From a virus: a stretch of 50,071 bases of DNA. Position 1 is the first letter of the stretch, and the number at the start of each line of letters is the position of its first letter. The position numbers were made by a program, and so were the translations under genes. The notes beneath the pieces are model-generated. The model saw nothing but the letters and a program-made list of their open reading frames with translations, did no database searches and had not been told where the DNA came from. Below, one piece after another: positions 12,980 through 27,821 of the stretch. The stretch is taken from positions 1 to 50,071 of IMG/VR virus record IMGVR_UViG_3300028920_000008; one strand, 5' to 3'.

Positions 12980-12988
12980 AATCGGATA

Positions 12989-13170
12989 GATGTTGCCGGA
13001 GATGGAAACCCTCCTCGGACTCCATCGTGTGCGGTATTATGTGGGGACATCGATATCGCACACGGCAACATCAACGCGCCCCGGTGATGCGCGGACGTAG
13101 AGATGGTTGGTTCGCCTCCGGCCATCAACTCCTTGACGCATCACTTGGGGCGCTTGTCGTTTTTTTCGTA
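12989..13170 (+). ncRNA. Two-domain structured RNA with three-way junctions
   Basis: The whole 217-bp spacer folds. Domain A: GATGTTGCCG (12989-12998) pairs with CGGCAACATC (13063-13072). It encloses GATGGA/TCCATC (13001-13006/13021-13026) and CGTGTGCG/CGCACACG (13026-13033/13057-13064). Domain B: GCGCCCC (13076-13082) pairs with GGGGCGC (13147-13153). It encloses GTGATGCG/CGCATCAC (13084-13091/13137-13144). A T run (13160-13166) and CGTAG follow. All listed stems are perfect. The 3' part carries the shared ATCACTTGGG signature. It could be a regulatory leader with a terminator or a free ncRNA. Confidence 0.55.
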
Positions 13171-13196
13171 GATGCCCAGGAAGGACTACAAACAAG

Positions 13197-13502
13197 ATGA
13201 ATGATGAATCTGGAAATGATTTTTCTTCTCGCTCAGAAAAAATGACGCCGCGTGCGCCATCAAAGCTGGAAGAGAAAGAGCTGATGAAGGCATTCTCTGA
13301 TGAGTATGGAACAGACAGTGATTACAATGATATGTGGGGCGCATATATCGCAATCTTTGACAATTACATCACCGGAGGGCCGGGATGGTTTGGGAAGCTT
13401 GCGGTTGTTGTTTATGATGGAAGCCCAGATTTTGTTCAAAGCTGGAGATGGATCCAGGCCGAGCAAAGATGGACTTTGTGTGGAGACTACAAAGATATCT
13501 GA
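13197..13502 (+). CDS. Unknown acidic protein
   Basis: 101 aa, ATG at 13197 after AGGAAGGA. Polar N-terminus, helical EEKELMKAFSDEYG, then a Trp/Gly-rich part (MWGAYIAIFDNYITGGPGW, SWRWIQAEQRW). First gene after the structured RNA. No family recognised. Confidence 0.5.
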   Translation: MNDESGNDFSSRSEKMTPRAPSKLEEKELMKAFSDEYGTDSDYNDMWGAYIAIFDNYITGGPGWFGKLAVVVYDGSPDFVQSWRWIQAEQRWTLCGDYKDI

Positions 13503-13516
13503 AAGGTTGATGTGAA

Positions 13517-13750
13517 ATGTTCGGATGTAAACACAAATTTGAAGAGCAATCGAGGACATTCTCGATGCCAAATCCGAACAGATTTGGGAAGATACGAGTC
13601 GAAGATCTTTCGATGGACGAAAGGGAGAGGTTTCTTCAATCAATTCTGTTTGGAATCACTTCGATAGTATCTGTTTGTGTAAAGTGTGGCAAGATTGAGT
13701 CTTGCCTTGTAATTGGAGATCATTCAACACTATCAAACGAAAGGGGGTGA
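13517..13750 (+). CDS. Unknown small protein with CxH...CxxC pattern
   Basis: 77 aa, ATG at 13517. MFGCKHKFEEQ near the start and VCVKCGKIESC near residues 53-63 give a C-x-H...C-x-x-C set, plausible for one zinc ion. A helix (DLSMDERERFLQSILFG) separates them. Function unknown. Confidence 0.5.
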   Translation: MFGCKHKFEEQSRTFSMPNPNRFGKIRVEDLSMDERERFLQSILFGITSIVSVCVKCGKIESCLVIGDHSTLSNERG

Positions 13751-13752
13751 TT

Positions 13753-14055
13753 GTGGACAATGACTCTCCGCTGAAAAAAAGGATATGGATCACCCGTGAT
13801 TCAAAAGCGCTGCCATATTCCGTTTGGGAAGATGGTAGGCCCGAATGGGGTGATGGATCGCAAAGATGGGGATACTATAAAACTTCGATGTCAAGTGAGA
13901 AAAGAGTTCTCACGATGAAGGGAGATAGGCTGCCATCTTTTGTGATGTACCTGTCCTCAGAAGATGCTGCGAATTTCTTCGGCGTAAGCGGGATGGAAGG
14001 AGGCAGCGATTCAATTGTAGAGATGGAGGTTTCAATCAAAGTCATTGGAGGATGA
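13753..14055 (+). CDS. Unknown protein
   Basis: 100 aa from a GTG at 13753, chosen because AAGGGGGTGA lies just upstream; this ribosome binding site overlaps the end of the previous gene. Composition is mixed alpha/beta with several Trp residues (VWEDGRPEWGDGSQRWGYY) and a C-terminal strand (VEMEVSIKVIGG). Not recognised. Confidence 0.5.
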   Translation: MDNDSPLKKRIWITRDSKALPYSVWEDGRPEWGDGSQRWGYYKTSMSSEKRVLTMKGDRLPSFVMYLSSEDAANFFGVSGMEGGSDSIVEMEVSIKVIGG

Positions 14056-14056
14056 C

Positions 14057-14464
14057 TTGAAACAATCAAACGTGTTCAAGATCGATGCTCTCATTCAAAA
14101 GATTGAGAACAAGATTAAGCCAGATCTCGACAAACTGGAGGAGCTGAAGATAGCCCGCAAGGTTATTTCCGATCTTCCAGATACCGTCGAAATGCCTGGC
14201 TCAAAGACAGTCCCGCCGCCATCAAAAAGGCGGCGAAAAAAGAGATACGGTAGCAAGAGCGTTCTGTCCTACGTGAGCGCTCTTATATCAAATCGTATAC
14301 TCATCGGTTCTTTCAACGCGAAAGATGTTCGTCGAAAAGTCAAGAATACTTACGGGTATAACGTAAATATCAAGACAATCGGCGTTGCACTTTCTCGTTT
14401 GTGCAAGGAAGGCAGAATCAATCGCGTTGGTCGCGGATTGTATCGCATTCCGATTGATAAGTAA
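14057..14464 (+). CDS. Coiled-coil plus winged-helix DNA-binding protein
   Basis: 135 aa from the TTG at 14057, preceded by GGAGG; the frame is open four codons further upstream. Residues 1-45 form a coiled coil (IDALIQKIENKIKP, DKLEELKIARKV). A basic linker (PPPSKRRRKKRYGSKS) follows. The last 70 residues read as a winged helix (VLSYVSALISNR, FNAKDVRRKVKNTYG, TIGVALSRLCKEGRINRVG, GLYRI) with the wing at the end. A dimeric transcription regulator of early or middle genes is the natural guess. It is the best candidate to bind the phage's repeated operator-like motifs, though nothing links them directly. Confidence 0.6.
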   Translation: MKQSNVFKIDALIQKIENKIKPDLDKLEELKIARKVISDLPDTVEMPGSKTVPPPSKRRRKKRYGSKSVLSYVSALISNRILIGSFNAKDVRRKVKNTYGYNVNIKTIGVALSRLCKEGRINRVGRGLYRIPIDK

Positions 14465-14493
14465 CAGCAACAACAGAATAGAAAGGGGATATC

Positions 14494-14667
14494 ATGGATT
14501 TCAAAAAGTCCATTCAGAACCTGAAGTATCGCGATAGAAAGGAAAGAGCCGAAATGCACAAGGCATCTCCGGAGCATCGCGCAGATGTAATGCGGCATTC
14601 GATTTCGAACGACAAATGGATTTCCGCTCTCCAGAGAGCAGGTGAATCTGATGTCACTTCGAGGTAG
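14494..14667 (+). CDS. Small basic protein (57 aa)
   Basis: 58-codon frame from the ATG at 14494, behind AAAGGGG. The protein begins MDFKKSIQNLKYRDRKERA and is rich in Arg, His and Lys, mostly helical. Its 3' end overlaps the next start, as is common in this operon. Function unknown. Confidence 0.55.
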   Translation: MDFKKSIQNLKYRDRKERAEMHKASPEHRADVMRHSISNDKWISALQRAGESDVTSR

Positions 14668-14860
14668 GATTTCAAAAATCAAAAAGCATCTTTATGATGC
14701 TCAGGGAAAACTGAGAGCGTTGCCGAACGATGTGTTCAATCCGATGGATGAAACACAAATAATGCGTAAGGACGTGATACTAAATCAAATCGGACTTACG
14801 CTTATGTCGTTAGATGAACTCAAAAACGATGTCATCGAGGGCGCAAAAGACAGCAAGTAG
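14651..14860 (+). CDS. Small helical protein
   Basis: 69 aa from the ATG at 14651 (MSLRGRISKIKKHLYDAQG), preceded by AGGTGA. Two amphipathic helices separated by a Pro-containing linker (LPNDVFNPMDETQ). Overlaps the previous gene by 17 bp. Unknown. Confidence 0.5.
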   Translation: MSLRGRISKIKKHLYDAQGKLRALPNDVFNPMDETQIMRKDVILNQIGLTLMSLDELKNDVIEGAKDSK

Positions 14861-14870
14861 TATCGGCAAC

Positions 14871-14942
14871 CGCAGACATCCTCCTGAGATGGTGCAACCA
14901 AGAAGGCTTGCATCACTTGGGAGGATGTCCGGTTTTTCGTGG
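14871..14942 (+). terminator. Structured spacer with shared signature (copy 2)
   Basis: GACATCCTCC (14875-14884) pairs with GGAGGATGTC (14920-14929), and CCG/CGG extends the stem across a bulge. Inside, TGGTGCAA (14890-14897) pairs with TTGCATCA (14908-14915). TTTTT (14933-14937) and CGTGG follow. A GC-rich stem with a T tail looks like an intrinsic terminator, and the next gene's GGAGG starts at once. It shares ATCACTTGGG-N16-CGTGG with copies at 13140 and 17210. Confidence 0.55.
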
Positions 14943-14950
14943 AGGTTTTG

Positions 14951-15304
14951 ATGCTAAAAAAGAATCGAGAAGTTTCTAAGTATGATTTTGTTGAGATTGA
15001 AGATACAAGCGAGCCGAGATGTCGGCACTTCGGGGTTGTTGTGAATTATGTATATACATCAAAGGAAGTTGTTGAAGAAAAAGGACAGCTTCTTGAGATA
15101 GAAAGATTCATCAACGATCCTAGCACTGGTGAATTTGCCTATACTGGACTATCGTACTACTACGAAAAAAACGTGGTGGTTATATCGAAGGCCGAAAAGC
15201 CGGTTGATCCCAAGTTGGCTGTCAAGTTTTTGCTTTTCGATATAAATAGGGAGTTGTCCAGGGTCACATCAAAAGAGGGGGAATCAGATGTATGTGTATC
15301 GTAG
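14951..15304 (+). CDS. Unknown protein
   Basis: 117 aa from the ATG at 14951 (MLKKNREVSKYDFVEIEDTS) with GGAGG at 14941-14945. Mostly beta in the first half (FGVVVNYVYTSKEVV) with a C-terminal helix. Overlaps the next gene by 17 bp. No family recognised. Confidence 0.5.
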   Translation: MLKKNREVSKYDFVEIEDTSEPRCRHFGVVVNYVYTSKEVVEEKGQLLEIERFINDPSTGEFAYTGLSYYYEKNVVVISKAEKPVDPKLAVKFLLFDINRELSRVTSKEGESDVCVS

Positions 15305-15788
15305 GATGTCTCCTTTTGATAAGGTTGATAAGGAGAACCCGCAATACTTTGTTGGATTTTATGATCCACAAGGAAAGTGGTATCTCGAATCAGGCCCGTT
15401 TGCAAGCACAGAAGAAGCAGCAAATAGAGTTCACTATCTGAACAGTCTATCGTCTGTCACAGAGAAAATAGCAACAGAGATATATAATACGGTATATGAA
15501 GCCGTAGAGAAATATATCGAGAAGGCAAAGAATGATGGATTGTTTTCTCCGCAGGTCACCGATGATGGTGAATTTCTCGACAGATGGAGTATTCGCGGAT
15601 GGGATGGAAAAAAATGGACAGAGGTAACCCTTGATGTTGCCATAGAATCTGCGGAAAAATATCTGTCGGCCTGGAAACAAGTTGGTGACACAATAAGAAA
15701 CTCTATCGATGGAAACTCGATGGAGCTAAGGGTATTCAATGAGATTGGCGAACACACTGACGCCTGTTGTATAATCAAACTAGATTGA
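15288..15788 (+). CDS. Unknown protein
   Basis: 166 aa, ATG at 15288 after AGAGGGGG. N-terminal strand pair (QYFVGFYDPQGKWYLESGPF), a long central helix (IYNTVYEAVEKYIEKAKN) and a Trp-rich segment (WSIRGWDGKKWTEV). Not recognised; expressed with its neighbours as one operon. Confidence 0.5.
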   Translation: MYVYRRMSPFDKVDKENPQYFVGFYDPQGKWYLESGPFASTEEAANRVHYLNSLSSVTEKIATEIYNTVYEAVEKYIEKAKNDGLFSPQVTDDGEFLDRWSIRGWDGKKWTEVTLDVAIESAEKYLSAWKQVGDTIRNSIDGNSMELRVFNEIGEHTDACCIIKLD

Positions 15789-15807
15789 CCGGAAAGGAGA
15801 TGGTCAA

Positions 15808-16068
15808 ATGGCAAGCTATCAGGAAACTGGAAAAAAGATAGCGGACAGAATATCCACCCCGCTGTCAAAGCTCGATGAAACAGACCGAAGGGATGTTATC
15901 GACGCTATTTTGTTCTTCGGACAAACTGCAAAGTTTAGATGTCGAAACAACAGCGCGTATGACAATTTTTGTCGTATCTGTTTTGGTCGAGTCGCAAGGC
16001 TTGAAAGATCAGATGTTGGGCTTGGATTCGACATGCTTCATGTTGATTCTCTGAAAGAAAACGAATAG
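15808..16068 (+). CDS. Unknown small helical protein
   Basis: 86 aa, ATG at 15808 behind AAAGGAGA. Helical, with a Cys/Arg cluster in the middle (KFRCRNNSAYDNFCRICFG). Three Cys in that span could bind metal. Unknown function. Confidence 0.5.
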   Translation: MASYQETGKKIADRISTPLSKLDETDRRDVIDAILFFGQTAKFRCRNNSAYDNFCRICFGRVARLERSDVGLGFDMLHVDSLKENE

Positions 16069-16077
16069 GAGGATGGC

Positions 16078-16626
16078 ATGTCATCAAATGATTTGCTTAA
16101 AGTCAAACTTGTTTTGACAGATAAGAGTGAGGTTGTTTGTCGCGATGTCAGACAAGAAACAGTGGCAGATAGCCCGACGTGGAACAGATATCGTGCGCTG
16201 CTCCAAGAGTGGAAGATGAAACAGGAGCCTACAAACGAGCTAATCGAGCTTCTGATTGAGTTTCTTCCGATTGACATCGAGCTGTTGCTTTGGGAGAAGT
16301 ACGATGGAGGAGATAGTGACGGATATCAAAGAGCAGTTGATAGATTTAGTCACGAGCTTCCATGCGAGAACGGTCTGATGGAGTTTAGGGATGAGCTTGT
16401 AAGGCTCTACTCTGACGCAGATCTTGCTGATAGATCAATCGAAGATCTTGAGGAGATGTTGCTTGAAATGAAGGAGTACAAAAACATAACTGTAAGTTTG
16501 ATTTGTGATAAAATCAAACGCGCAGTTGAAAGTGCTTGTGCGCTCATCAATCAAGCAAGAGATGTTGGAGGATATGATTCTGATATTGAATCATATATTG
16601 ATCTCCTGAGAGAGATAAGGACATAA
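16078..16626 (+). CDS. Unknown acidic helical protein
   Basis: 182 aa, ATG at 16078 behind AGGAGG. Strongly acidic and leucine-rich (NELIELLIEFLPIDIELLLW, RSIEDLEEMLLEMKEYK). DNA-mimic or host-inhibitor proteins of phages are often like this, but there is no specific evidence. Not recognised. Confidence 0.5.
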   Translation: MSSNDLLKVKLVLTDKSEVVCRDVRQETVADSPTWNRYRALLQEWKMKQEPTNELIELLIEFLPIDIELLLWEKYDGGDSDGYQRAVDRFSHELPCENGLMEFRDELVRLYSDADLADRSIEDLEEMLLEMKEYKNITVSLICDKIKRAVESACALINQARDVGGYDSDIESYIDLLREIRT

Positions 16627-16643
16627 TAACTAGGGGGCATCAC

Positions 16644-17093
16644 ATGCCAAGAGAGCGAAAATCATACGATATCCGTATGATAAAAAAATACAGAATACTC
16701 GAAAGGCCATCAATAAAAGGCCCAAGAGATGCTGTGAATCACGCAATTAAAATCGGGATGTTCAAAAAAGATCCCGACAAGGAGGTTTTCTACGCCTACT
16801 ATCTCAGCACAAAGAACGAGATAATAGTGGTTGATACTATCTCAATTGGATCTCTAAATGCGTCAATTGTTCATCCGAGAGAGATACTCAAACCTGCGAT
16901 ATTAAATTCTGCTGCGGCGATTCTTATGATGCACAATCATCCAACAGGAGACCCCGCACCATCAAAAGAGGATATAGAATTTACGCGCAGATTCAATCAG
17001 TGCTGCGAGCTGATTGGAATTCAGTTGCTAGATCATGTTATCGTTGGAGCTGATGGTAAATACCATAGCTGCAAAGAGAACGGATCCATCTAG
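16644..17093 (+). CDS. RadC-like JAB/MPN-domain protein
   Basis: 149 aa, ATG at 16644. Covers the C-terminal MPN(JAMM) domain of RadC proteins without the helix-hairpin-helix part. The JAMM ligands are visible: Glu47 in KEVFYAYYLS, His97 and His99 in MMHNHPTG, and Asp110 in PAPSKEDIEF, the full E...HxHPxGxxxPSxxD signature. The family is a putative zinc metalloprotease or deubiquitinase-like enzyme with unknown bacterial substrate; despite the name it is not a proven DNA repair factor. Phage copies are known to occur. It sits at the end of the small-gene run, before a structured spacer. Confidence 0.85.
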   Translation: MPRERKSYDIRMIKKYRILERPSIKGPRDAVNHAIKIGMFKKDPDKEVFYAYYLSTKNEIIVVDTISIGSLNASIVHPREILKPAILNSAAAILMMHNHPTGDPAPSKEDIEFTRRFNQCCELIGIQLLDHVIVGADGKYHSCKENGSI

Positions 17094-17123
17094 CACAGAA
17101 GTACATAGTCCTTGAGAGCATCA

Positions 17124-17240
17124 GGGGCCAGGGTGCCGGATAGATGATGGTATCCCGAAAACTGTCATCTGTCTAGTAAACTGGCCCCTTTTCGCGTGGA
17201 TAAATATATATCACTTGGGCCGGCATTCAGATTTTCGTGG
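17124..17240 (+). terminator. Structured spacer with shared signature (copy 3)
   Basis: In the 214-bp gap after the RadC-like gene, GGGGCCAG (17124-17131) pairs with CTGGCCCC (17181-17188), followed by TTTT: a good intrinsic terminator. GATAGATGA/TCATCTGTC forms an inner stem. TGCCGG (17134-17139), inside that hairpin, can pair with CCGGCA (17220-17225), part of the downstream ATCACTTGGG-N16-CGTGG element. The two outer pairings interleave, so they form a pseudoknot or exclude each other, as in an attenuator. Confidence 0.5.
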
Positions 17241-17307
17241 CGTTTTTTAATATGGAAAATTATATTTCAATTCTCTAATCTGAAATATAAAAACTGTAGG
17301 GAGAGAG

Positions 17308-17847
17308 ATGAACAGAAAAGAATTGCAGAAAAAAATTGATGCGATCAAAGAGTTTACCCCGTCGCAAAAAAATGCCATACAAACAATGTTAAGGCAAATA
17401 GCGTCTGTTTGCGACGGAGCGCAAGATCTTGATGGCTTTGGATTCAACAAGCACGACTCATCTTTTGGTAAGAGCCTTGCAAGCCAAACATCGCGCCTCT
17501 CACATAGGCAGGCACTTGCGGGGATCAGACTTGCCTACAAGTACAGGAGACAGCTATCAAGCTCTGCGCAATCTTTGCTAAACAGAATCCTTGACGGGAA
17601 AGACGACCAGCCAACACTTGGATTGGGGCAAGCGGGGCCACACGAACCAAACGACATAATGATCTTCCCTGTTTTTGTGTCCGGCACATGTGAAAGAATT
17701 CATGTTGTATCAAGGTCTGCGGCAAAAGAAATCGCCTCATTCCTTCCAGAAGAATGGTCTGATTCTGTGCAAAAAAATCTTTATGAAAAAGGCTTAAAAA
17801 GTGTTGACATAGAGGAAATCGAAGGTATACTTTCAATTAACAATTAG
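17308..17847 (+). CDS. Unknown protein
   Basis: 179 aa, ATG at 17308 behind GGGAGAGAG. A helical N-terminal half (KKIDAIKEFTPSQKNAIQTM; SHRQALAGIRLAYKYRRQLS) and a C-terminal half with a Pro-rich loop. A central zone DGFGFNKHDSSFGKSLASQT resembles short segments in phage proteins that bind DNA or cofactors, but no family is recognised. Confidence 0.5.
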   Translation: MNRKELQKKIDAIKEFTPSQKNAIQTMLRQIASVCDGAQDLDGFGFNKHDSSFGKSLASQTSRLSHRQALAGIRLAYKYRRQLSSSAQSLLNRILDGKDDQPTLGLGQAGPHEPNDIMIFPVFVSGTCERIHVVSRSAAKEIASFLPEEWSDSVQKNLYEKGLKSVDIEEIEGILSINN

Positions 17848-17869
17848 GCCAACAAACGATTTTTTGGCC
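17847..17869 (+). terminator. Hairpin at the gene end
   Basis: GGCCAA (17847-17852), overlapping the stop codon, pairs with TTGGCC (17864-17869) around an 11-nt T-rich loop. No T tail follows, so it is more likely a stabilising 3' hairpin than a terminator. Confidence 0.4.
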
Positions 17870-17905
17870 GAAGGAATGCACCCATAAACAACAGGAGGTA
17901 TTGAG

Positions 17906-18094
17906 ATGTTGGTGAAGAAAGACGGAAAGACTTACAAGGTGACAAAGAAAAATTTTCGCAAGATCCTTCTGAGTCACGCGGTCGGCGGCAAGTATGACAT
18001 CTCCAAGATCGGCTCGGAAGTCGGATCTGTCGAGCATGACCTTGACAAGATGTCACCCGAAGTTGCCATGAAGGAAGTCGAGAAGTTCATCTAA
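17906..18094 (+). CDS. Small basic protein
   Basis: 62 aa, ATG at 17906 behind ACAGGAGG. Starts MLVKKDGKTYKVTKKNFRK; basic N-terminus, acidic C-terminal helix (SPEVAMKEVEKFI). Function unknown. Confidence 0.5.
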   Translation: MLVKKDGKTYKVTKKNFRKILLSHAVGGKYDISKIGSEVGSVEHDLDKMSPEVAMKEVEKFI

Positions 18095-18098
18095 GTCA

Positions 18099-18196
18099 AT
18101 ATAAGCGCGAGGGTTACAACCTAAGCGCCTATTGATTGCAAGCGTAGGGGTTGGGGCGTGTTCCCGGCCCCTACGCGCTTATATACGCTTATATAG
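18099..18196. promoter_or_regulatory. Operator-like cluster of AAGCGC/GCTTATA boxes with hairpin
   Basis: ATATAAGCGCG (18099-18109) and CGCGCTTATAT (18174-18184) are perfect inverted repeats. A third box, TAAGCGCCTAT, lies at 18122-18132 and is identical to 8924-8934. Two 10-bp tandem copies (GCTTATATAC, GCTTATATAG) lie at 18177-18196. GCGTAGGGG (18142-18150) pairs with CCCCTACGC (18168-18176). The array lies before an early gene and shares motifs with sites at 9866 and 34337. Confidence 0.55.
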
Positions 18197-18213
18197 AGTC
18201 ACTAGGAGTAGAT

Positions 18214-18471
18214 ATGATAAGAACAAAAGCAGAAGTTGACCTAAGCATAGAGATCCTGGGAAAGATGTCAGAGCTTGTTGATCTGGAGAAAGAGCTTGTA
18301 GCAACAAAAATAAAGGGACAAATCAAGAGCAACAAGGCGTCGGAAAAAAATCACACAAAGCAAACAATCATAAGCGATGGCGTTGCTGAGTTTCTTGCAA
18401 AGATCGACAAAACAATCAATCGAATAGACTCAATCCTATCAGTAAGAGATGGGAGAAAGACAGCTAGGTAG
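18214..18471 (+). CDS. Unknown small helical protein
   Basis: 85 aa from the ATG at 18214, behind TAGGAGT. Predicted nearly all helix (EVDLSIEILGKMSELVDLEK; EFLAKIDKTINRIDSI), with a basic linker. Directly downstream of the operator-like array, so it may be separately controlled. Not recognised. Confidence 0.5.
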   Translation: MIRTKAEVDLSIEILGKMSELVDLEKELVATKIKGQIKSNKASEKNHTKQTIISDGVAEFLAKIDKTINRIDSILSVRDGRKTAR

Positions 18472-18513
18472 CGGATATTTACGGTATTCCGCAAAACTTA
18501 GTCTATAATTTTG

Positions 18514-18543
18514 TTGACGGCACAAGCTGTTACGTGCTATAGT
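18514..18543 (+). promoter_or_regulatory. Sigma70-type promoter
   Basis: TTGACG (18514-18519), 18-bp spacer, TATAGT (18538-18543), each one mismatch from consensus, in the 101-bp gap before the 18573 gene. The spacer contains GCAC...GTGC arms that could be an operator. Confidence 0.55.
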
Positions 18544-18572
18544 TTTATCATAGTGTAAGAAAGGGGTTTTTC

Positions 18573-18842
18573 TTGATACAAGAATCTTCATCTGTTGGCC
18601 GCTTAAATCCGCGAGTCCCCGTGAGATTTAAAAACGAGCGGGCACAAAAAGTATATCAACAAATAACCAAAAGAATAGAAGTCCATCAAAGATCGGCTGA
18701 TGAAGCTGAGGCTTTCGAGTCTTTTGGCAAGATGGTTGATAGAATCTCCAGGATGGAGGAGCTTGATTGGGTAGTCGCGCATCTTAAGAGACTATTCAGC
18801 TTCGAGGAAATAGAAGAAGATACAACCGATCGAGAGGGCTAA
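18573..18842 (+). CDS. Unknown small helical protein
   Basis: 89 aa, TTG start at 18573 behind AAGGGG. Basic N-terminus (RLNPRVPVRFKNERAQKVYQ), then acidic helices (EELDWVVAHLKRLFSFEEIE). Follows a good promoter. Unknown function. Confidence 0.5.
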   Translation: MIQESSSVGRLNPRVPVRFKNERAQKVYQQITKRIEVHQRSADEAEAFESFGKMVDRISRMEELDWVVAHLKRLFSFEEIEEDTTDREG

Positions 18843-18949
18843 ATCCTATAGCTGGCAAGCTGATCCTTTCTGTGTCTTTTCGGTCGGTTTTTAATTGATG
18901 GGCCGGGGCCACTCTCTCCCGAAACCCCTTGCTCGACGTGGCTCCGGTT
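18826..18949 (+). terminator. Two long-range stems in the spacer after the 18573 gene
   Basis: ACCGATCG (18826-18833, inside the gene end) pairs with CGGTCGGT (18882-18889), followed at once by a T run to 18893. Then GGCCGGGGCCAC (18901-18912) pairs over 12 positions (three G-T) with GTGGCTCCGGTT (18938-18949). The first looks like a terminator with a large loop; the second is a 12-bp hairpin ahead of the next gene. Confidence 0.45.
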
Positions 18950-18980
18950 CCATCTTAACTCTTAAAAATAGGAAGGTGAT

Positions 18981-19343
18981 ATGTATACGATAAGAATAGA
19001 CAATCTTGATGAGTACACCGGGAGTGATGTAGAAAAGGATCTCACCGAGACAATGAATCAAATGCTTGCAGAGCATGGGATGAAGTCTGGTGGGATTCAT
19101 TTTTTCCCTGGAAGGGACGATCTTTTTGTCCTTGTTGATGTTGAGATGATCGAACCAAGAATTAGGCCGGGCCAAAGATCAAAGGATTGCCTGCTTAGTT
19201 TCCCGGACTGGATTATTGTCAACAACACGGTTAACGACGTGCTTGATAAATTTAAATTTTATGCCACCGTAAAATCAAGCAAGTTCGTTGTGCGGATAGG
19301 GAAGCGCAGAAGGGAAGATTATAAAGGTGGCAGGAGGTTCTGA
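18981..19343 (+). CDS. Unknown protein
   Basis: 120 aa, ATG at 18981 behind AGGAAGGTG. Alternating beta strands and helices (MYTIRIDNLDEYTG, DLFVLVDVEMIEP, KFVVRIGKRRRED) with a very basic C-terminus. Not recognised. Confidence 0.5.
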   Translation: MYTIRIDNLDEYTGSDVEKDLTETMNQMLAEHGMKSGGIHFFPGRDDLFVLVDVEMIEPRIRPGQRSKDCLLSFPDWIIVNNTVNDVLDKFKFYATVKSSKFVVRIGKRRREDYKGGRRF

Positions 19344-19344
19344 T

Positions 19345-19548
19345 ATGCCAGCAAACTCTGTCGGATTTGTCTTTGCTATGATAGGTGTTGCAGAGATATT
19401 TACAATGTATGATAACGATCATGCAGATGTGTACCTTTGTGGCGGCTGTCGCAGGGAGGCAAGATGGAAGGACAGGCGACAGACTCCGATGTGTTTTAGG
19501 TGTGGATCTTCTGACCTGACACTTATCAGGAAGAGATCTGAATACTAA
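19345..19548 (+). CDS. Small zinc-ribbon protein
   Basis: 67 aa from the ATG at 19345, behind CAGGAGG. A hydrophobic N-terminus (SVGFVFAMIGVAEIF) is followed by two CxxC knuckles, LCGGCRRE and MCFRCGSS, 20 residues apart, the signature of a zinc ribbon. Probably binds nucleic acid or RNA polymerase; the target is unknown. Confidence 0.55.
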   Translation: MPANSVGFVFAMIGVAEIFTMYDNDHADVYLCGGCRREARWKDRRQTPMCFRCGSSDLTLIRKRSEY

Positions 19549-19560
19549 AGAGAGGTGTAT

Positions 19561-20547
19561 ATGCCTAAAGATAGCAGAGAAGAAAAATCCATCGACGAGA
19601 TGGAAAAAGAAGCTTCTGCTTCCGAAGATATTCCGGCCCCCCCAGACTCAGATGATCCGTGGGCTGGAGAAGAAAGGAAACAGGACAAGTTTTCGGATCG
19701 CGATGGCGAAGCAAAGGTAAAACTTTACACGCTATCAATTCCGAACGAGCCTGTTGTTGGCGGCAATCCAAATCCTGGATTTAGAAAGCTATGTCTCGAC
19801 CGGGATATGGCTATTGAGCCGCGTGATCACATTAGAGCTGTTGTTCTTGACAGGATAATGCCAAACATCGCGCAGGTTCCATACAAAGAGGCAAAAAAGA
19901 TTCCAAAGGATGAGCCGTGGAGAAAGTATCTTGGATACTCTTTCGATGGTGTCGCGCCTTCCGCGGATAAGGAGGGCGTATTTTTTCGGAAGTGTCTCGA
20001 TGTTGACGGAAATCCATTCAAGTCCTGTTCTCTCAACCCTGGCTTTGATAGCGATGGATCTCCGCGCGTCAAAGAACTAGGAGATGGCGAGTGTCCGTGG
20101 GGTAGATGGACAAACAGCCTAACGGAATCAGACAGAGAAAAGTACAAGATCAAGGATGATGACGCACCGCCAATGTGTAACAACAACATCCTTCTGTACT
20201 GTTGGGATCTTGATATCTCTGTTCCGTTTGTCGCATACTTCAAGGTAACAACAATCGGATACGCAAAAGACTTCTTGGCTTCTTGCACAAGAGGATTGGG
20301 CGAGGAGCAGAAGCAGTATCCGTTCTATGCGTTTGAGGTACTGTTTAGTGTTGTCGATAAAGGAGAGTACGCAACAGCAAAAATCGTCAACACAAACAAA
20401 TTCAGCAACCCTGGGCGCATCAAGCCTGTTGTATCGTGGTTCAACGAAAACAGAGAGTTGATGGTTCGAAACGTGGCAGTCCAGATGGGAGAGTTGAAGA
20501 AGAAAGCAGAAGATGCTGGAGACTTCAAGCCGGAGGACTACGAATAG
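19561..20547 (+). CDS. Cys-rich protein at the head of the replication block (possible ssDNA-binding role)
   Basis: 328 aa from the ATG at 19561, behind AGAGAGGTG. A 45-residue acidic, disordered start (SIDEMEKEASASEDIPAPPD) is followed by a globular domain with conserved-looking Cys and Trp (FRKCLDVDGNPFKSCSLNPG, GECPWGRW, PPMCNNNILLYCWDLD), then beta strands (VPFVAYFKVTTIGY) and a C-terminal helix. It is first in the block that encodes nuclease-like, helicase and primase proteins. A single-strand-binding or annealing role would fit that position, but the sequence match is not strong enough to name it. Confidence 0.45.
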   Translation: MPKDSREEKSIDEMEKEASASEDIPAPPDSDDPWAGEERKQDKFSDRDGEAKVKLYTLSIPNEPVVGGNPNPGFRKLCLDRDMAIEPRDHIRAVVLDRIMPNIAQVPYKEAKKIPKDEPWRKYLGYSFDGVAPSADKEGVFFRKCLDVDGNPFKSCSLNPGFDSDGSPRVKELGDGECPWGRWTNSLTESDREKYKIKDDDAPPMCNNNILLYCWDLDISVPFVAYFKVTTIGYAKDFLASCTRGLGEEQKQYPFYAFEVLFSVVDKGEYATAKIVNTNKFSNPGRIKPVVSWFNENRELMVRNVAVQMGELKKKAEDAGDFKPEDYE

Positions 20548-20748
20548 ATGCCGAAGGTCGTCAATGACGATATGGTTCCTGTCTCTGAGGAAATGAAGAT
20601 CATAATTCGGAGGCTTGGATACAAGGAATGCGCAAGGCTAACTGGAAAAACAGATAGCTATATGCGATCTCTTGCGTCTAAGGGAGAAAAAAGAATCCGA
20701 AGGTCTGATCTGAGAATAATCGACATGGCAAGGACGGCATCTATGTAG
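20548..20748 (+). CDS. Small helix-turn-helix protein
   Basis: 66 aa, ATG at 20548 directly after the previous stop. The core IIIRRLGYKECARLTGKTDS then YMRSLASKGEKRIRRSDLRI reads as a compact HTH with a basic recognition helix. Probably a sequence-specific DNA-binding protein regulating the replication block. Family not assigned. Confidence 0.5.
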   Translation: MPKVVNDDMVPVSEEMKIIIRRLGYKECARLTGKTDSYMRSLASKGEKRIRRSDLRIIDMARTASM

Positions 20749-20836
20749 TTGATTGGGTGGATGGGCGTAGCAAAACGGCAGGGCCAACTTTTTTGGCAAG
20801 GTAATCGCCACTCCATCTACGCCCCCACCCTATCAA
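20749..20836 (+). ncRNA. Long hairpin RNA before the Cas4-like gene
   Basis: The 103-bp gap folds into one rod. TTGAT/ATCAA (20749-20753/20832-20836), GGGTGG/CCACCC (20755-20760/20825-20830) and GGGCGTAG/CTACGCCC (20763-20770/20817-20824) stack with one mismatch and a 2-nt bulge. An apical hairpin GCCAA/TTGGC (20783-20787/20793-20797) has a T-rich loop. No T tail follows, and the ribosome binding site AAGGAGG lies just outside the stem. Too long for a simple terminator. Role unknown. Confidence 0.55.
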
Positions 20837-20851
20837 TTAAAAGGAGGACTT

Positions 20852-21916
20852 ATGAAGCGAGAGGTAAATCTTGATAGCCTGCAAAGGCCGGCTGTTTATT
20901 CTCCAGACTGGTTTAAAATATCAAGCAGCATGTCAGATACGTTCTCTGAGTGCAGGCAAAAGTTTTTGTATTCATATGTATACAAGATAAAACAGAGAAA
21001 AGTAGACCACAAACTGCTACGACGTAGCTGTGTGATATTTGCCTCTAATGGAGAAATAGTCAAAAAATTTGGAGAGGCCACCAATCTTGATAGAGTTGCG
21101 TGGTTTCTTGCATCTGAGGCAAAGCAAGCCGTAAAAGATCTTGGGCTTGCTTTTTCGTGGAAAGAATGGGTTTCGATCTGTGGACAGAATGGAGAGCATC
21201 CAATAGAATCTGCAATAAAGAAAGTATATGATTTCCCATCCCCAGAAAACAAAAGATGGTATTTTTCCTTTGATGACTTTATGACTCAATGCATCAACGC
21301 GACAGCAACAATAAGAATGTTTCTTACGAGAAATGAAATCGTGCCACTAAAGAAAGATGGCAGGACATTCATACAACAAACACTTGAGGCTCCGCTTGTA
21401 ATAGATGGCCAGATTCTTGATGAGACAAACGGAAGCCCAACAATAATGCGTGCGCAGGTTAATTTTATCGACAAAGATATGAATGTGTATGTGTGGAGGA
21501 TTTCTTCAAAGAGGTCGTCCGAGAACGAAATGGTTGCAAAGATATCAGAGTCGATAGATGCTCAGGCCGCTGTTGTTGCGCATCACTTTCAGGGAAGCGT
21601 AGATTTTCCGATTCACTTTGATCTTAGAAAGATAGTTGTTAAAAAAGATGGAGATATTTCTGAGGTAGAAAGCCACCAACGAGATGTATCACGAGAGGAG
21701 GTTGATGACACAAAAAGACGCCTTGCTTACAAGGCTAAAGAGATAAGGTCTATGAATATCTTTAGGGAGAGATCATGGACTTGTCCAAGATGTAGTCATT
21801 ATGACGTATGTATTAGGCGCGATACGTCAAACTTCATACAGGAAGTATGGGGAGATGAAGCGCAGGTAGCACCGAAAAAGAAAGAAACCAACGACATAGA
21901 TGATATGCCGTGGTAA
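20852..21916 (+). CDS. Cas4/RecB-like PD-(D/E)XK protein, catalytic acids replaced
   Basis: 354 aa, ATG at 20852. N-terminal ISSSMSDTFSECRQKFLYSY matches the start of Cas4/AddB-type nucleases, with Cys34. Near the end TCPRCSHYDVC (C311, C314, C320) supplies the other three ligands for a 4Fe-4S cluster. QAAVVAHHF fits the QxxxY region. The catalytic strands do not fit: where G-x-I-D is expected the protein reads AQVNF (N204), and where D-x-K is expected it reads SSK (S218, K220). It is therefore probably a DNA-binding, non-cleaving relative, or the active site has moved. The neighbouring Fe-S helicase suggests joint action on DNA ends. Confidence 0.65.
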   Translation: MKREVNLDSLQRPAVYSPDWFKISSSMSDTFSECRQKFLYSYVYKIKQRKVDHKLLRRSCVIFASNGEIVKKFGEATNLDRVAWFLASEAKQAVKDLGLAFSWKEWVSICGQNGEHPIESAIKKVYDFPSPENKRWYFSFDDFMTQCINATATIRMFLTRNEIVPLKKDGRTFIQQTLEAPLVIDGQILDETNGSPTIMRAQVNFIDKDMNVYVWRISSKRSSENEMVAKISESIDAQAAVVAHHFQGSVDFPIHFDLRKIVVKKDGDISEVESHQRDVSREEVDDTKRRLAYKAKEIRSMNIFRERSWTCPRCSHYDVCIRRDTSNFIQEVWGDEAQVAPKKKETNDIDDMPW

Positions 21917-21931
21917 GAGAGGAGCTTTGAT

Positions 21932-22507
21932 ATGTTGGTAGAGACATATGAAGTGACTGAGGCTGTAGATCCTGATTCCGCGACAGAAGAAAACGAAAAA
22001 GCACGCGCTCTGATAGAGGAGCTTGGCCTTTCTGGTCAAAAAAAATTCATTGGCGAAGTCGGAGAAACCGTGCCGTTCAGAAAGATGTCGCAACTTGAAA
22101 CAAACGTGTATAAAACGCTTTTGGGTTCAAGAACATCTGTCGATGAATACTCGGCAGGTATGATTCCGGCAAGGGTTCTTGATATTGTAAAGAGACACAG
22201 GGATTCTTTTGAAAGAATCGACGTACTCTACTCCGAAAACGATCCAGACCCCGTCCTTGTTGGTGTGATGAAAAGAGAGAACTCTACATGGCAAAAAGAC
22301 GACTTCATTCTCGCCAGATGGGGAGATGAGCTTGAGTCGATCGAGTCTCTCGCAAACAAGGCGCTTGACATCATAAGGGGCAACGTGACTACCGCCCTTC
22401 AAAAAGCAAAGACTGCTATAGACGCAGACATCGAAGCGGCAAAAAGTATTGGTATGCACACGCTCCACAAGTCGATTCCGAACCCTCGTTATTATTCTGA
22501 ATTTTAG
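21932..22507 (+). CDS. Unknown protein of the replication block
   Basis: 191 aa, ATG at 21932 after GAGAGGAG. Acidic helical N-terminus (SATEENEKARALIEELGLSG), a central mixed part (SAGMIPARVLDIVKRHRDSF) and a C-terminal helix (LANKALDIIRGNVTTALQKA). Lies between the Cas4-like and helicase genes. Not recognised. Confidence 0.5.
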   Translation: MLVETYEVTEAVDPDSATEENEKARALIEELGLSGQKKFIGEVGETVPFRKMSQLETNVYKTLLGSRTSVDEYSAGMIPARVLDIVKRHRDSFERIDVLYSENDPDPVLVGVMKRENSTWQKDDFILARWGDELESIESLANKALDIIRGNVTTALQKAKTAIDADIEAAKSIGMHTLHKSIPNPRYYSEF

Positions 22508-22522
22508 AAAGGGATTATTGAT

Positions 22523-24115
22523 ATGTGCGACGTAGTAGAAAAATATTTCCCAAAGCAACCGCCATTTAACGGAAAACCACGCGATGCCCAGGGAGATGTG
22601 ATAGAGCGCATGTATCAGGCCGTCGTTGGGGGTAAGCGATTCTTAGTAATCGCTGCCCCCACCGGAGCTGGTAAAAGCGCGATACTATACACTCTTGCAA
22701 ATGCTATTTGCGATCTGAATGGCGTTGACCACAGACTTGATGGAAGCGGTGCGATATTCACAACGTCACAAAAAGTCTTGCAAGATCAGTATGAAGAAGA
22801 TTTTCAAGACATGTTTGTAATGAAGGGCAGGGGGAACTATCCATGCAAACAGCCAGTCGAGTCAGAAGAATCGAACAACTGTGATGCAGGGATATGCCTG
22901 TTCAGAGAAACAAAACCAGACTGCGATACCTCTTGTCCATACAAGCAAGCAAAAATACAAGCACAACTTAGCAAGTTGATTGTAACAAATTTTGCTTACT
23001 TTATCGGAGAAAGCAACAACGTAAACGCCTTTGGAAAGAGGCGTGTTTTGATGATAGATGAAGCGCACAACATAGAGTCTGCATTGATGAGCTATGTTGA
23101 GTGTGGCATATCAGAGGCCGGCCTGAAGTTTTGCGGGCTGGAGAGGATAGTGCCAATATTTGATCGCTTCGGCCAGTACGAAGATTTTCTTGTCCAGCTA
23201 TCAAAAGATGCAAAAGAAAGAGCAATTGACCTTAAAGGCGAGATGGAGCAAAATCCTAGCACTGTCTTTACCGACAAGGCAAAGCAATACGATAGGGCCA
23301 TGAAGCTTTTTCAGAAAACATCTTTCATAAGATTTCACGCAGAAACATGCAAGTGGATACCAGACGCCGATGCAGACAAAAGGAAGGTTGTTTTTAAGCC
23401 GATAAATGTAAGCCCATTTGCAAGAAATCTTGTGTTTGCATTTGGCGACATCAACATTCTTTCTTCTGCCACAATCAGCAAGAGCTACGTCAAAAACTGT
23501 CTTGGAATCCCAGATAGCGACTTCGAATATTTCGAGGTTCCATCTACGTTTCCCGTAGAAAACAGGCCAATCTACGCCATGAACGCTGGAAAGATGGGCT
23601 ACAGATATCTTGAGAAATCGCTTCCAAATATAGTCAGGAAAATAGATGCGATTATAGATCAATTCCCCGACAGCAAAGGGATAATACATGCTACTTCATA
23701 CAAGATAGCAAAGTATGTCTCGTTGCACTCAAGACATGCTGAAAGATTTATATCGCACAACTCTGTAGATAGGATAGAGAGGCTAAGGGATCATATGAAA
23801 TCTCCAGAGCCAACAATACTTCTGTCTCCATCGATGACAGAAGGTGTAGACCTGAAGGGCGATCTTTCTCGCTTCCAGATTATTGTAAAAATCCCATACG
23901 CTTCACTTGGGGACAAACAGATAAAAGCCAGAATGGAAGAAGATAAAATCTGGTATGCCAATCTCGCCGCCGTCACCCTGATGCAAGCATATGGAAGATC
24001 AATAAGGAGCAAATCTGATACGGCGATTACTTTTGTTCTTGACTCTGCATTCAAGTATTTTGTAAAAAGCAACGATCATCTCTTTTGCAATTGGTTTAAG
24101 GAGGCAATTAGATGA
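22523..24115 (+). CDS. XPD/DinG-type Fe-S DNA helicase
   Basis: 530 aa, ATG at 22523. Superfamily 2, 5'-to-3' helicase family. Walker A APTGAGKS (45-52). Fe-S-domain cysteines between motifs I and II: C108, C120, C125, C134, C138 (YPCKQPVE, NNCDAGIC, PDCDTSCPY). IVTNFAYF precedes the DEAH box MIDEAHNIE (177-185). SATIS, MTEGVDLKGD and the arginine-finger motif AYGRSIRS are in the second RecA domain. It likely opens forks, R-loops or recombination intermediates. Its stop overlaps the next ATG (ATGA). Strong family assignment; the precise role is inferred. Confidence 0.9.
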   Translation: MCDVVEKYFPKQPPFNGKPRDAQGDVIERMYQAVVGGKRFLVIAAPTGAGKSAILYTLANAICDLNGVDHRLDGSGAIFTTSQKVLQDQYEEDFQDMFVMKGRGNYPCKQPVESEESNNCDAGICLFRETKPDCDTSCPYKQAKIQAQLSKLIVTNFAYFIGESNNVNAFGKRRVLMIDEAHNIESALMSYVECGISEAGLKFCGLERIVPIFDRFGQYEDFLVQLSKDAKERAIDLKGEMEQNPSTVFTDKAKQYDRAMKLFQKTSFIRFHAETCKWIPDADADKRKVVFKPINVSPFARNLVFAFGDINILSSATISKSYVKNCLGIPDSDFEYFEVPSTFPVENRPIYAMNAGKMGYRYLEKSLPNIVRKIDAIIDQFPDSKGIIHATSYKIAKYVSLHSRHAERFISHNSVDRIERLRDHMKSPEPTILLSPSMTEGVDLKGDLSRFQIIVKIPYASLGDKQIKARMEEDKIWYANLAAVTLMQAYGRSIRSKSDTAITFVLDSAFKYFVKSNDHLFCNWFKEAIR

Positions 24116-24546
24116 GCAAGAATAATACTGACTCCATAAAGATTGTCAGTATTCCATACAATCACGATATGGAGAAAATCAGCGAGACAACATCAAAAAT
24201 CGACGGAAGAACTCTTTCGTCAAGCGTGGCTGTTGGGCTTGGAAGTTTGTGCAATCTTTTGGAACCGTTCATATCTTATAGAGAAGTGTTGATGAGAAAT
24301 AGAATATCAAAGGCAAGGTCGCTTGCGCTCAAGGTAGATGCAACAGACGGTGTAAGCGAAAAAGAAAAAGAAAAAGCGATGAGCGATATAAATTCAATAA
24401 TATCTGGGGCAGAGAAAACGCTTGTTGCGCTTAGACACTTGGAACCAATAAGAGAAGCGATAATAAAATATACAAGAGATTTGCCAGGAAGCGGTGTGTA
24501 CGATCTCAAGCAAAAAGTAACCATATGGATCGATATAGACGAATGA
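24112..24546 (+). CDS. Unknown helical protein
   Basis: 144 aa, ATG at 24112, coupled to the helicase stop. Long helices (EVLMRNRISKARSLALKVDA, KEKEKAMSDINSIISGAEKT) and a short C-terminal strand. Possibly a helicase or primase partner. Not recognised. Confidence 0.5.
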   Translation: MSKNNTDSIKIVSIPYNHDMEKISETTSKIDGRTLSSSVAVGLGSLCNLLEPFISYREVLMRNRISKARSLALKVDATDGVSEKEKEKAMSDINSIISGAEKTLVALRHLEPIREAIIKYTRDLPGSGVYDLKQKVTIWIDIDE

Positions 24547-24558
24547 GGAGGTTCTTCT

Positions 24559-24786
24559 GTGATACCAAAAGAAAAGGTCGAAGATGTAATTGTCGTAACC
24601 GCCAGGAGCAAGAATCAATTTCAGATACAGCTAAGGCAGGTTATAAACACTTTCGGGATGGACAGGATAAAGATCATTGGATCTGGTGTCCAGCATATAA
24701 GGCAGGCGATAAACCTTCACGCAATCATAGTTGTGAAGGAAAAATCAGATACGCGCAAAAAAGTCTCAACAGCATCTAATGGGTAA
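24559..24786 (+). CDS. Candidate Alba-like nucleic-acid-binding protein
   Basis: 75 aa, GTG start at 24559 behind GAGGAGG. The order strand-helix-strand-helix-strand reads VEDVIVVTARS, NQFQIQLRQVINTFG, DRIKIIGSG, VQHIRQAINLH, AIIVVKEKS. The G-S-G turn before the second helix and the basic end resemble the Alba fold of archaeal chromatin and RNA-binding proteins, though helix lengths are short. It sits just before the primase. The Alba link is a fold-level guess and needs a profile search or model. Confidence 0.4.
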   Translation: MIPKEKVEDVIVVTARSKNQFQIQLRQVINTFGMDRIKIIGSGVQHIRQAINLHAIIVVKEKSDTRKKVSTASNG

Positions 24787-24798
24787 TGGAGGGTTTAG

Positions 24799-27363
24799 TT
24801 GATATCTTACACCATACAGGGTGTAGATGTTCTTGAAGAAAAGTCTGTGTCTGGAGATAATGAATCTCTTTGCACTTGTCCTTCTTGCGGAAGACAAAAA
24901 CTGTATATTAATAAATCTGGCGGAGAGAAAGATGGGCTTTTCGAATGCAAAGTCTGCGGACTCTCTGGAAAAGTAGAAAACCACAATAGCACTTCGCGAA
25001 AAAAGAGCATCAAGCCAGAAAAGAAAAAAGACCAAATAAGCGATGAGGTCGTACACAGATATATAGACAAGCTTGTAAACTCATGCAAGATTAATGAGTT
25101 TGTCAGATCCTATTTCTCAAAAAAGAAGATACCAATTGGATTGGTGGAACAATACAGAATAGGATATTCTGAAGAGCTACCAGATTACGATGATATGAAA
25201 ATCGCAAGGCGGTTGGGCCTTGTGAATGAGAAGCTAAATAACCGCTTTTACAAGCGAATTGTTATGCCGGTTATGGCGAAGGGGCGTTGGGTGTATTTAA
25301 CGTCAAGGGCTGTTGGTATTTCAAGTCCAGCGAAGTATATGGACATAAGTCTAAAGAAAAGAATATTTCGCGAGGATGCAATAGATAGTAATAACAGAAT
25401 ATTTTTATGCGAGGGCATACCAGACACGCTATCAATGATAGCAAATGGATATGATTCTGCAATAGGAATACTTGGCTCTCAAGTTTTCAAGGAAGATTAT
25501 AAGGAAAAGTTAAGAAACAAAGAAATCATTATTTGCTATGACAATGATTTTGCCGGAAGAAGAAGCACTGTTCATATCGCGAACATAATGTCTGCCGCTG
25601 GATCTAGGGTATCATCAATAACACTTGGGGAAGGGCAGGATGTATCTGATTTCTTTGCCGCAAATAAGGGCAAAAAACTAGAGATAGTCCCAATAGAAAA
25701 GATAGAAAAAGAGCAAAAGATACTCCTGTTCTCCAGGGCAGAGCCAAATCTGTTGGTGTATTCGTTTGGTCATTATGAAATCAGGGCAAGTGACATCACG
25801 CCAAGAAAGGGATCTCTAAGGGCTACGGTGTCGGTATTTAATAGTACAAAAATACTTGCATCGTCAAATTTTGATCTTACTTCAATGAGGCTTCGCGCAA
25901 CATACGCAAAAGAGTTTGTTGCAAATGCAAGCGATGTCGCAGAGCCAGAAGCAAAATCGATGTTGATGGATCTTGCAAACGCAATAAAGCAAAATCTGCA
26001 AGAACAGGAAGAAACAGCAGAAGAAAAACAAGTATATATAATGAGCGATAAGGAGAAGGAAAGCGCACAAAAGATGTTGTGCGACCCGCTCCTACTATAT
26101 AGGATAAAACGCGCACTTGATAGACAGGAGGTTGTTGGGGAGGATATAAACAAACTGTTGTTATATTTGATATACACATCTCGCCTAATGAAAAAGCCGA
26201 TATCGTGTCTAATCAAAGGACTCTCAAGTTCTGGAAAAACATATTTGATGGGCAAGGTTTTGAGCCTTATTCCACCAGAGGGCCACATCACAATCCAACA
26301 GGCAACTGGCCGTGCGCTGTATTATATGGGAGAGCTTGATTTAAAACACAAGATGATAATTATAGGCGAGATGCACGGAGCAGAAGAAACACAATATTCT
26401 TTGCGAGAGGCACAGGATGGAATTGGTGAGGGCGACCTGATTATTGCTACCGTAGAAAAGGATCCTGATACAAACCAGAATCAAACGGTAATAAAGAGGG
26501 TTGCTGGCCCGTGCGGATTTGTTTCATCGACAACTTCGGTTGAAATTAATCCAGAAAACGAGACAAGAAACTTTTCTATATATGTAAAAATAGATGAAAA
26601 CAAAGTAAAAGATACTGCATCAACGCTTGTAGACAAATATCTTGGCAAGTCTAACGTATTATCGCAAGATGAACTTCTGTTGTTTCACAACGCACAGAGA
26701 AGCCTACAAACAAATATGATGGTGCGTATTCCTTATATAAAATACGTGCTAGATAGATTTCCGTCGTCGCCAATCAGGGTCATGCGGGACAGGGTTAGAT
26801 TTTGTGTGTTGCTTGAGACAATAGCAATAATACATCAGTTCCAAAGAGAAATATCAGAAGATGAAGATGGACAAAGATGGATAACAGCTTCAATATCTGA
26901 TTACAACATAGCACTCGCCTTGATGAACGAGATCTTGGTTGAGACAATCTATGAATTGCCAGCCAAGTCAAGAGAGATATATAGTGTTGTTGTTGAGATG
27001 AGAGATGAATTTGTAGAAAACTCAGACACGTCGTCCATAATAGACGATGAAGATAAGGCAAAATTATTCAACGCAACATATAAGCAAATAGGCGAAAGAA
27101 TGAACATGAAGGCGGCTGATATCAGAAGGTGGTCAAAGCCGCTTTTTGAGGCCGGCTATTTCGAATATGCCGATACTGGAGAAAAAAACTCTGGAGGAAG
27201 GGGGAAGCAAACAAAATTGATTCCTGTTGACAAGGAATTTTACCACGGATTCCTTCCTTCTCCAGATGAGATTGCAAATTATTTCGGCATGTTTGATGAG
27301 ACACTATACAATCCAATAACAGGAGAAACAAGAGAAATAGAAAGGATGGAGGTAGACCTTTGA
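24799..27363 (+). CDS. Primase-helicase (zinc finger, TOPRIM and AAA+/SF3-like ATPase)
   Basis: 854 aa, TTG start at 24799 behind GGAGGG. Residues 25-55 hold a primase zinc ribbon (CPSCGRQ with C27, C30; ECKVCG with C50, C53). TOPRIM follows, with Glu205 in FLCEGIPDT and the DND acids at about 248-250 in IICYDNDFAGRR. After a linker comes a C-terminal NTPase: Walker A GLSSSGKT (474-481) and Walker B MIIIGEMHG (519-527), where Glu stands at the usual Asp position. A C-terminal winged-helix-like region (KQIGERMNMKAADIRRWSKP) follows. It would prime and unwind at the phage fork. No separate replicative helicase or DNA polymerase was recognised, so host polymerase is likely used. Confidence 0.85.
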   Translation: MISYTIQGVDVLEEKSVSGDNESLCTCPSCGRQKLYINKSGGEKDGLFECKVCGLSGKVENHNSTSRKKSIKPEKKKDQISDEVVHRYIDKLVNSCKINEFVRSYFSKKKIPIGLVEQYRIGYSEELPDYDDMKIARRLGLVNEKLNNRFYKRIVMPVMAKGRWVYLTSRAVGISSPAKYMDISLKKRIFREDAIDSNNRIFLCEGIPDTLSMIANGYDSAIGILGSQVFKEDYKEKLRNKEIIICYDNDFAGRRSTVHIANIMSAAGSRVSSITLGEGQDVSDFFAANKGKKLEIVPIEKIEKEQKILLFSRAEPNLLVYSFGHYEIRASDITPRKGSLRATVSVFNSTKILASSNFDLTSMRLRATYAKEFVANASDVAEPEAKSMLMDLANAIKQNLQEQEETAEEKQVYIMSDKEKESAQKMLCDPLLLYRIKRALDRQEVVGEDINKLLLYLIYTSRLMKKPISCLIKGLSSSGKTYLMGKVLSLIPPEGHITIQQATGRALYYMGELDLKHKMIIIGEMHGAEETQYSLREAQDGIGEGDLIIATVEKDPDTNQNQTVIKRVAGPCGFVSSTTSVEINPENETRNFSIYVKIDENKVKDTASTLVDKYLGKSNVLSQDELLLFHNAQRSLQTNMMVRIPYIKYVLDRFPSSPIRVMRDRVRFCVLLETIAIIHQFQREISEDEDGQRWITASISDYNIALALMNEILVETIYELPAKSREIYSVVVEMRDEFVENSDTSSIIDDEDKAKLFNATYKQIGERMNMKAADIRRWSKPLFEAGYFEYADTGEKNSGGRGKQTKLIPVDKEFYHGFLPSPDEIANYFGMFDETLYNPITGETREIERMEVDL

Positions 27364-27530
27364 TTGGCGATGGGGAGCAAAAAAAAGGATCGCATCTTAG
27401 TCACGTTCTTGATAAGTTAGCAAGTCTCGACGAAGAAACAAAAAAAAGACTGGAAGAAGTGAAACATATTAGCGCTCCAGATGAAAACAAGAATACATTT
27501 ATCTTCAACGACAAAAGGAATGCCAAATAA
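27360..27530 (+). CDS. Small acidic/basic protein (56 aa)
   Basis: Frame from the TTG at 27360, behind GGAGG at about 27349, overlapping the primase stop. It ends at 27530, overlapping the next ATG (TAATG). Helical and charged (LSHVLDKLASLDEETKKRL). Coupling on both sides supports translation. Function unknown; perhaps a primase partner. Confidence 0.5.
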   Translation: MIGDGEQKKGSHLSHVLDKLASLDEETKKRLEEVKHISAPDENKNTFIFNDKRNAK

Positions 27531-27727
27531 TGGAAAGACTAGAAACATCGATATACTTAGATGAAAGCCTTGACGATGGATGTGTAAGAGTTTCGTTTGA
27601 CGCAAAAACAAAAGAAAGAATGATATTTGTGTCGGCAGATTTGTTTGAAGAAGTTGAGGCGGGCAACATTCCGGATGTTCTGGCGGATGAAATAAAAAAG
27701 GGAAGGAACGGGAAAAGCCCGATATAA
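27530..27727 (+). CDS. Unknown small protein
   Basis: 65 aa, ATG at 27530 coupled to the previous stop. Beta strands first (RLETSIYLDESLDDGCVRVS), then an acidic helix (ADLFEEVEAGNIPDVLADEI). Last gene before the 580-bp repeat-rich spacer. Not recognised. Confidence 0.5.
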   Translation: MERLETSIYLDESLDDGCVRVSFDAKTKERMIFVSADLFEEVEAGNIPDVLADEIKKGRNGKSPI

Positions 27728-27730
27728 TGT

Positions 27731-27765
27731 ATCACTTGGGGGAAAATTTGAATTTTTGTGGAGAT
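27731..27765 (+). other. Shared spacer signature (copy 4, primary sequence only)
   Basis: ATCACTTGGG (27731-27740), 16 nt ending in a T run, then TGTGGAG: matches the elements at 13140, 14912 and 17210. The flanking stems seen there are not found here; only a small CGGG-AAAAG-CCCG hairpin lies just upstream (about 27709-27721). Confidence 0.4.
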
Positions 27766-27821
27766 TTTTACCGCAAGATATCTCAGATGATAGCCAAATC
27801 TGGAATGGGCATCTATCTAAA

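Follow-up and report, generated by a model that had tools for sequence, protein, structure and literature searches.

A two-block intergenic repeat with the layout of a phage-specific promoter in a virus record without close relatives in searched collections

A short two-block repeat occurs five times in the plus-strand early/middle region of a 50,071-base virus record (IMGVR_UViG_3300028920_000008; the entire record is the window analyzed here). The repeat is probably a phage-specific bipartite promoter, distinct from the sigma70 -35/-10 pair, found where transcription units meet, next to or overlapping hairpins that resemble terminators. A preliminary description of this DNA had proposed that covarying stems define an RNA element. 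Its broader conclusion, that a conserved and repeated intergenic element in the plus-strand early unit likely controls expression, is supported by the present analysis, and its account of the stems is replaced.

The genes of the window run on the minus strand from 1 to 9832, on the plus strand from 10699 to 35074, and on the minus strand from 35063 to 50071. Recognizable genes include a terminase, a tape measure protein, a Rad3-type helicase, a Toprim primase, RadC, a RuvC-like resolvase, and a DNA methyltransferase. The window contains no Rfam families and no tRNAs, and the absence of tRNAs led us to drop a phage tRNA-like RNA as a candidate. The sole match of the terminase is to Halogranum tailed virus 1 (HGTV-1), at 28% over one third of its length, and relatives of the helicase are at most 39% identical. 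The loci of these helicase relatives carry none of the early genes adjoining the repeat and have almost no other gene in common with the window, and no relative with shared early genes was found among them. A blastn search of positions 12500 to 18500 against phages returned no matches. By the terminase and helicase values, the virus belongs to a lineage without a close relative in the searched collections.

Exact copies of ATCACTTGGG are present at 13140 (E1), 14912 (E2), 17210 (E3), and 27731 (E4), all on the plus strand and all intergenic, and nowhere else in the window on either strand. At each of the four sites ATCACTTGGG is followed by 16–17 nt ending in a T run (TTTT) and then by CGTGG, CGTAG, or TGTGG. 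Both observations agree with the preliminary description. The ATCAC core strand is invariant across these four copies. A two-block scoring matrix (PSSM) trained on the other copies identified a fifth, weaker copy at 11774 (E5). The five aligned copies share an (ATCAC)TTGG(G) block and a TTTT-CGTGG block at a fixed distance of 16–17 nt, and a second T run follows in all copies except E1. All five are on the plus strand and none is on the minus strand.

The significance of the repeat was estimated by leave-one-out scoring with 30 simulated 100-kb sequences as the null, whose highest scores were 18.6–20.2. The copies scored 19.4 (E1), 36.4 (E2), 30.3 (E3), 30.9 (E4), and 21.3 (E5), and any other site in the window scored 15.2 or less. 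E5 exceeded the simulated maximum of 19.2. E1 was the only copy that did not by itself exceed the simulated peak (19.9), a shortfall due to the CGTAG in its second block and to the missing downstream T run. An independent repeat finder paired E5 with E2 (family D9; 72% identity over 43 nt) and gave similarities of 68–75% over about 44 nt among the copies. As a five-copy set, the two-block motif is beyond chance.

The copies are confined to gaps between genes, and non-coding sequence makes up just 9.9% of 10699–35074. In a manual gene map, four of them occupy the largest gaps (580, 448, 217, and 214 nt), and E2 is in a gap of 90 nt. Some small ORFs of this map are doubtful, chiefly 28308–28547 with its weak coding signal. 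E5, the most divergent copy (11774–11814, plus strand; GCTACCATTGGA-N16-CGTGGGGTTTTTG; detected by the PSSM and the repeat finder), lies in the non-coding gap 11422–11869 with no hairpin through the motif; a terminator-like hairpin (GAAACCG..CGGTTTTTT) on the plus strand at 11650–11676 is about 100 nt upstream. E1 (13138–13171, plus; GCATCACTTGGG-N17-CGTAG) is in the gap 12980–13196. E2 (14910–14950, plus; GCATCACTTGGG-N16-CGTGGAGGTTTTG) is in the gap 14861–14950, and E3 (17208–17249, plus; ATATCACTTGGG-N16-CGTGGCGTTTTTT) is in the gap 17094–17307. E4 (27729–27770, plus; GTATCACTTGGG-N16-TGTGGAGATTTTT) begins directly past the stop codon of 27530–27727, upstream of an origin-like inverted repeat. 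The copies were said to lie just upstream of a gene, which fails at E4, since the first probable gene downstream begins at 28308 (the weakly supported ORF) or at 28583.

Two other repeat arrangements occur downstream of E4. A 59-nt inverted repeat (27821–27879/28143–28201, 92% complementary) occupies the 580-nt non-coding gap, and the 27821–28201 region also contains two direct copies of TTTGTGAATTGTTTCACAGAAAACCGTTCAAA plus copies of AAACCGTTCAAA; it resembles a replication origin or another protein-binding region of that type. Diverged repeats are also shared among the neighboring small genes at 28583–30292, with a 78-nt unit at 28739, 29326, and 30116 and related repeats of 24–46 nt, a pattern that suggests tandem gene duplication.

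The pairing of each motif strand with the 110 nt upstream was compared with 1000 dinucleotide shuffles of the upstream sequence. Pairing was -39.0 kcal/mol at E1 and -40.9 kcal/mol at E2, and none of the 1000 shuffles was as good in either case. In both copies a long hairpin with few interruptions takes in the motif as part of its 3′ arm, and a constant internal loop between variable stems is therefore absent. The E1 hairpin (13076–13153, plus; -42.6 kcal/mol, z = -5.2) has a 7-bp outer stem, GCGCCCC/GGGGCGC, its 3′ arm overlaps the first block, and a T run starts 6 nt beyond the stem. The terminator-like hairpin at E2 (14868–14934, plus; z = -5.7 to -6.2) is a near-perfect stem running into TTTTT, and its 3′ arm overlaps the motif. 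The pairing at E3 (-20.6 kcal/mol) was ordinary, with 125 of 1000 shuffles as good, and the helices proposed there, TGCCGG/CCGGCA and TGGTAT/ATATCA, cross a far stronger terminator-like hairpin at 17123–17189 (plus; GGGGCCAG..CTGGCCCC-TTTT; -41.7 kcal/mol, z = -6.0) that stops 19 nt upstream of the motif. E4 and E5 have no stem, as 807 and 646 of the 1000 shuffles, respectively, paired as well. Thus, the helices described at the first three copies hold at 13140 and 14912 and not at 17210.

Long hairpins with strong z-scores are also found in motif-free gaps at about 18095–18190, 20749–20838, and 12989–13070. These fill their inter-gene gaps with no T run after them, and they are possibly processing or stabilizing structures. 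Conversely, the motif at E3, E4, and E5 has no hairpin running through it. The motif and the hairpins are separable, and it is mainly for this reason that a single structured RNA element is rejected. The paired changes taken as evidence of selection on RNA structure fall outside the invariant ATCAC, in hairpins that are wholly different between copies. A common structure with covariation, the mark of a structured cis-regulatory RNA, was not found across the five copies, and pairing is significant in two of them.

A cis-acting RNA leader, with a transcribed hairpin and conserved single-stranded blocks that control early expression by attenuation, put/nut-like antitermination, or processing, nevertheless draws on real features of the window: strong hairpins include the core at E1 and E2, T runs follow the hairpins, and every copy is on the transcribed strand. 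We consider it rather improbable. Two copies are stemless, a third pairs at chance level, in competition with a stronger hairpin, and the core strand is invariant, which leaves the claimed covariation outside the core. RNAalifold found no base pair common to the copies, a result of little weight given a MAFFT alignment with the 5′ arms out of register. Rfam 15 gave no match at the gathering score and only sub-threshold noise (E 2.4–2.9), in agreement with the earlier statement that no known riboswitch or ribozyme was recognized, and known self-cleaving ribozymes were dropped for lack of an Rfam match. N4-type hairpin promoters were dropped for lack of a small hairpin common to the copies.

The bipartite promoter accounts better for the geometry. 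The repeat has two blocks at a fixed spacing within 15–19 bp, lies upstream of genes, and has one orientation. The spacing stays at 16–17 nt irrespective of stem length, as would be expected of a promoter more than of an RNA core. Fixed spacing, a single orientation, placement at the borders of gene groups, and nearby terminator-like hairpins together give the layout of promoters with the terminators of preceding units. (ATCAC)TTGG(G) would be the -35-like block and (TTTT)CGTGG the -10-like block, separated by a 16–17 bp spacer ending in a T tract and followed in four copies by what may be a T-rich start region. The copies would mark the borders of units beginning near 11870, 13197, 14951, 17308, and 28308. 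A terminator-like hairpin would close the prior unit at three of these five borders, just before the promoter or over its first block and spacer, and at E5 a simple hairpin of that type lies about 100 nt upstream. The stems would then be terminators of the upstream units, or hairpins that fold only when transcripts read through, and in either case would lie outside the conserved element.

The Pfam and PHROGs scans, which covered a subset of the ORFs and could miss a divergent protein, recognized no gene for a sigma factor, an RNA polymerase, or an activator, and none of the proteins made a convincing sigma-factor candidate. We therefore infer that the motif is read by a host RNA polymerase that the phage modifies, together with a specificity factor, and promoter activity and termination at the hairpins are likewise proposed from the sequence. 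A start site 5–10 nt downstream of the second block is geometrically possible at all copies. At E2 the -10-like block overlaps GGAGG, which doubles as a plausible Shine-Dalgarno sequence of the ATG at 14951; an mRNA initiated from a promoter there would have no leader or almost none. It also counts against a promoter that the -10-like block is rich in G+C and that we could confirm no promoter consensus matching it. The overlap of stem and motif at E1 and E2 is also left partly unexplained. Classical sigma70 promoters are not enriched in the window (45 found versus 37.8 expected), and two good-looking sigma70 sites, at 17804 and 18514, therefore carry little weight. The 867-nt A+T-rich non-coding region at 9833–10698, from which the minus-strand genes and the plus-strand early region diverge, lacks the motif on both strands, and minus-strand transcription must therefore use other signals.

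Known phage systems share parts of this arrangement. The sigma-factor promoters of phage 7-11 are bipartite, GTAAtg-(16)-aCTA, precede gene groups, and have start sites 6–9 bp away; the phage-encoded sigma-factor promoter consensus of phiEco32 is tAATGTAtA (PMC8948821). The present repeat resembles these in being bipartite with a 16-nt spacer, in being unlike sigma70, and in having several copies upstream of gene groups (PMC8948821). It differs in sequence, in its position in the early/replication region where theirs lie upstream of late genes, and in that this window has no recognized sigma-factor gene. The G+C-rich hairpins followed by T runs at 14868–14937 and 17123–17191, and less typically at 13076–13166, resemble intrinsic (rho-independent) terminators. 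In contrast to a plain terminator, the 3′ arm of the E1 and E2 hairpins coincides with the conserved motif, and simple termination gives no reason for a shared sequence to be kept.

A further likeness concerns the promoter early stem-loops (PeSLs) of T4-type phages, reportedly the subject of Arbiol 2010 and Comeau 2014. PeSLs are reportedly also repeated intergenic cassettes of a promoter-like part and a stem-loop at the borders of small, mostly ORFan early modules. Here, motif and stem-loop share one gap at E1, E2, and E3, E5 has a simple hairpin about 100 nt upstream, and the combination is absent at E4. In contrast to PeSLs, the promoter-like part of this repeat is not a host-like early promoter; two copies have no stem-loop or a distant one, and in the others it sits ahead of or on top of the first block. 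Two papers describe PeSLs as promoter/stem-loop cassettes of T4-type phages and mention a similar motif in the archaeal virus HGTV-1 (PMC4503421, PMC3950731).

A mobile or recombination cassette, in which short conserved linkers promote the shuffling of early modules and promoter activity is secondary, is suggested by the way the copies divide small modules of ORFan genes and by the shuffling attributed to T4-type PeSLs (PMC4503421). It is very improbable, as 68–75% likeness over about 44 nt is too diverged to favor homologous recombination, and no relative sharing the early genes was found in which swaps could be seen. The asymmetry of the repeat, its single orientation, and its restriction to gaps would also suit an intergenic repressor, stoperator-like, or activator site, bound by a phage protein that is not RNA polymerase, and the region encodes a winged-helix-type protein (14045–14464; AbiEi_4, E = 2.3e-6). 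However, a pair of blocks separated by 1.5 helical turns and a T-tract spacer is seen more typically in promoters than in sites for a single protein, and no tie between the winged-helix protein and the motif was seen. We give this alternative a low probability.

Motif scans of viral contigs and species genomes returned none or single matches, at chance level by estimate and mostly inside open frames, and no homologous element that would show conservation was found in the genomes scanned, which also counts against a promoter. It is unlikely that the repeat represents a new class of promoter, in which an isolated lineage would use ATCACTTGGG-16/17-CGTGG with an unrecognized phage specificity factor and would deliberately place terminator hairpins over the -35 block at some borders, coupling read-through and re-initiation. 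The repeat is novel in sequence and is best filed under a kind already known, the phage-specific promoters at terminator-bounded borders. The analysis corrects a likely misreading, since stems beside a conserved block in two copies do not make a covarying RNA when other copies are stemless. If the promoter reading is right, the repeat marks the transcription-unit borders in a phage lineage without close relatives in the searched collections and points to a transcription specificity factor.
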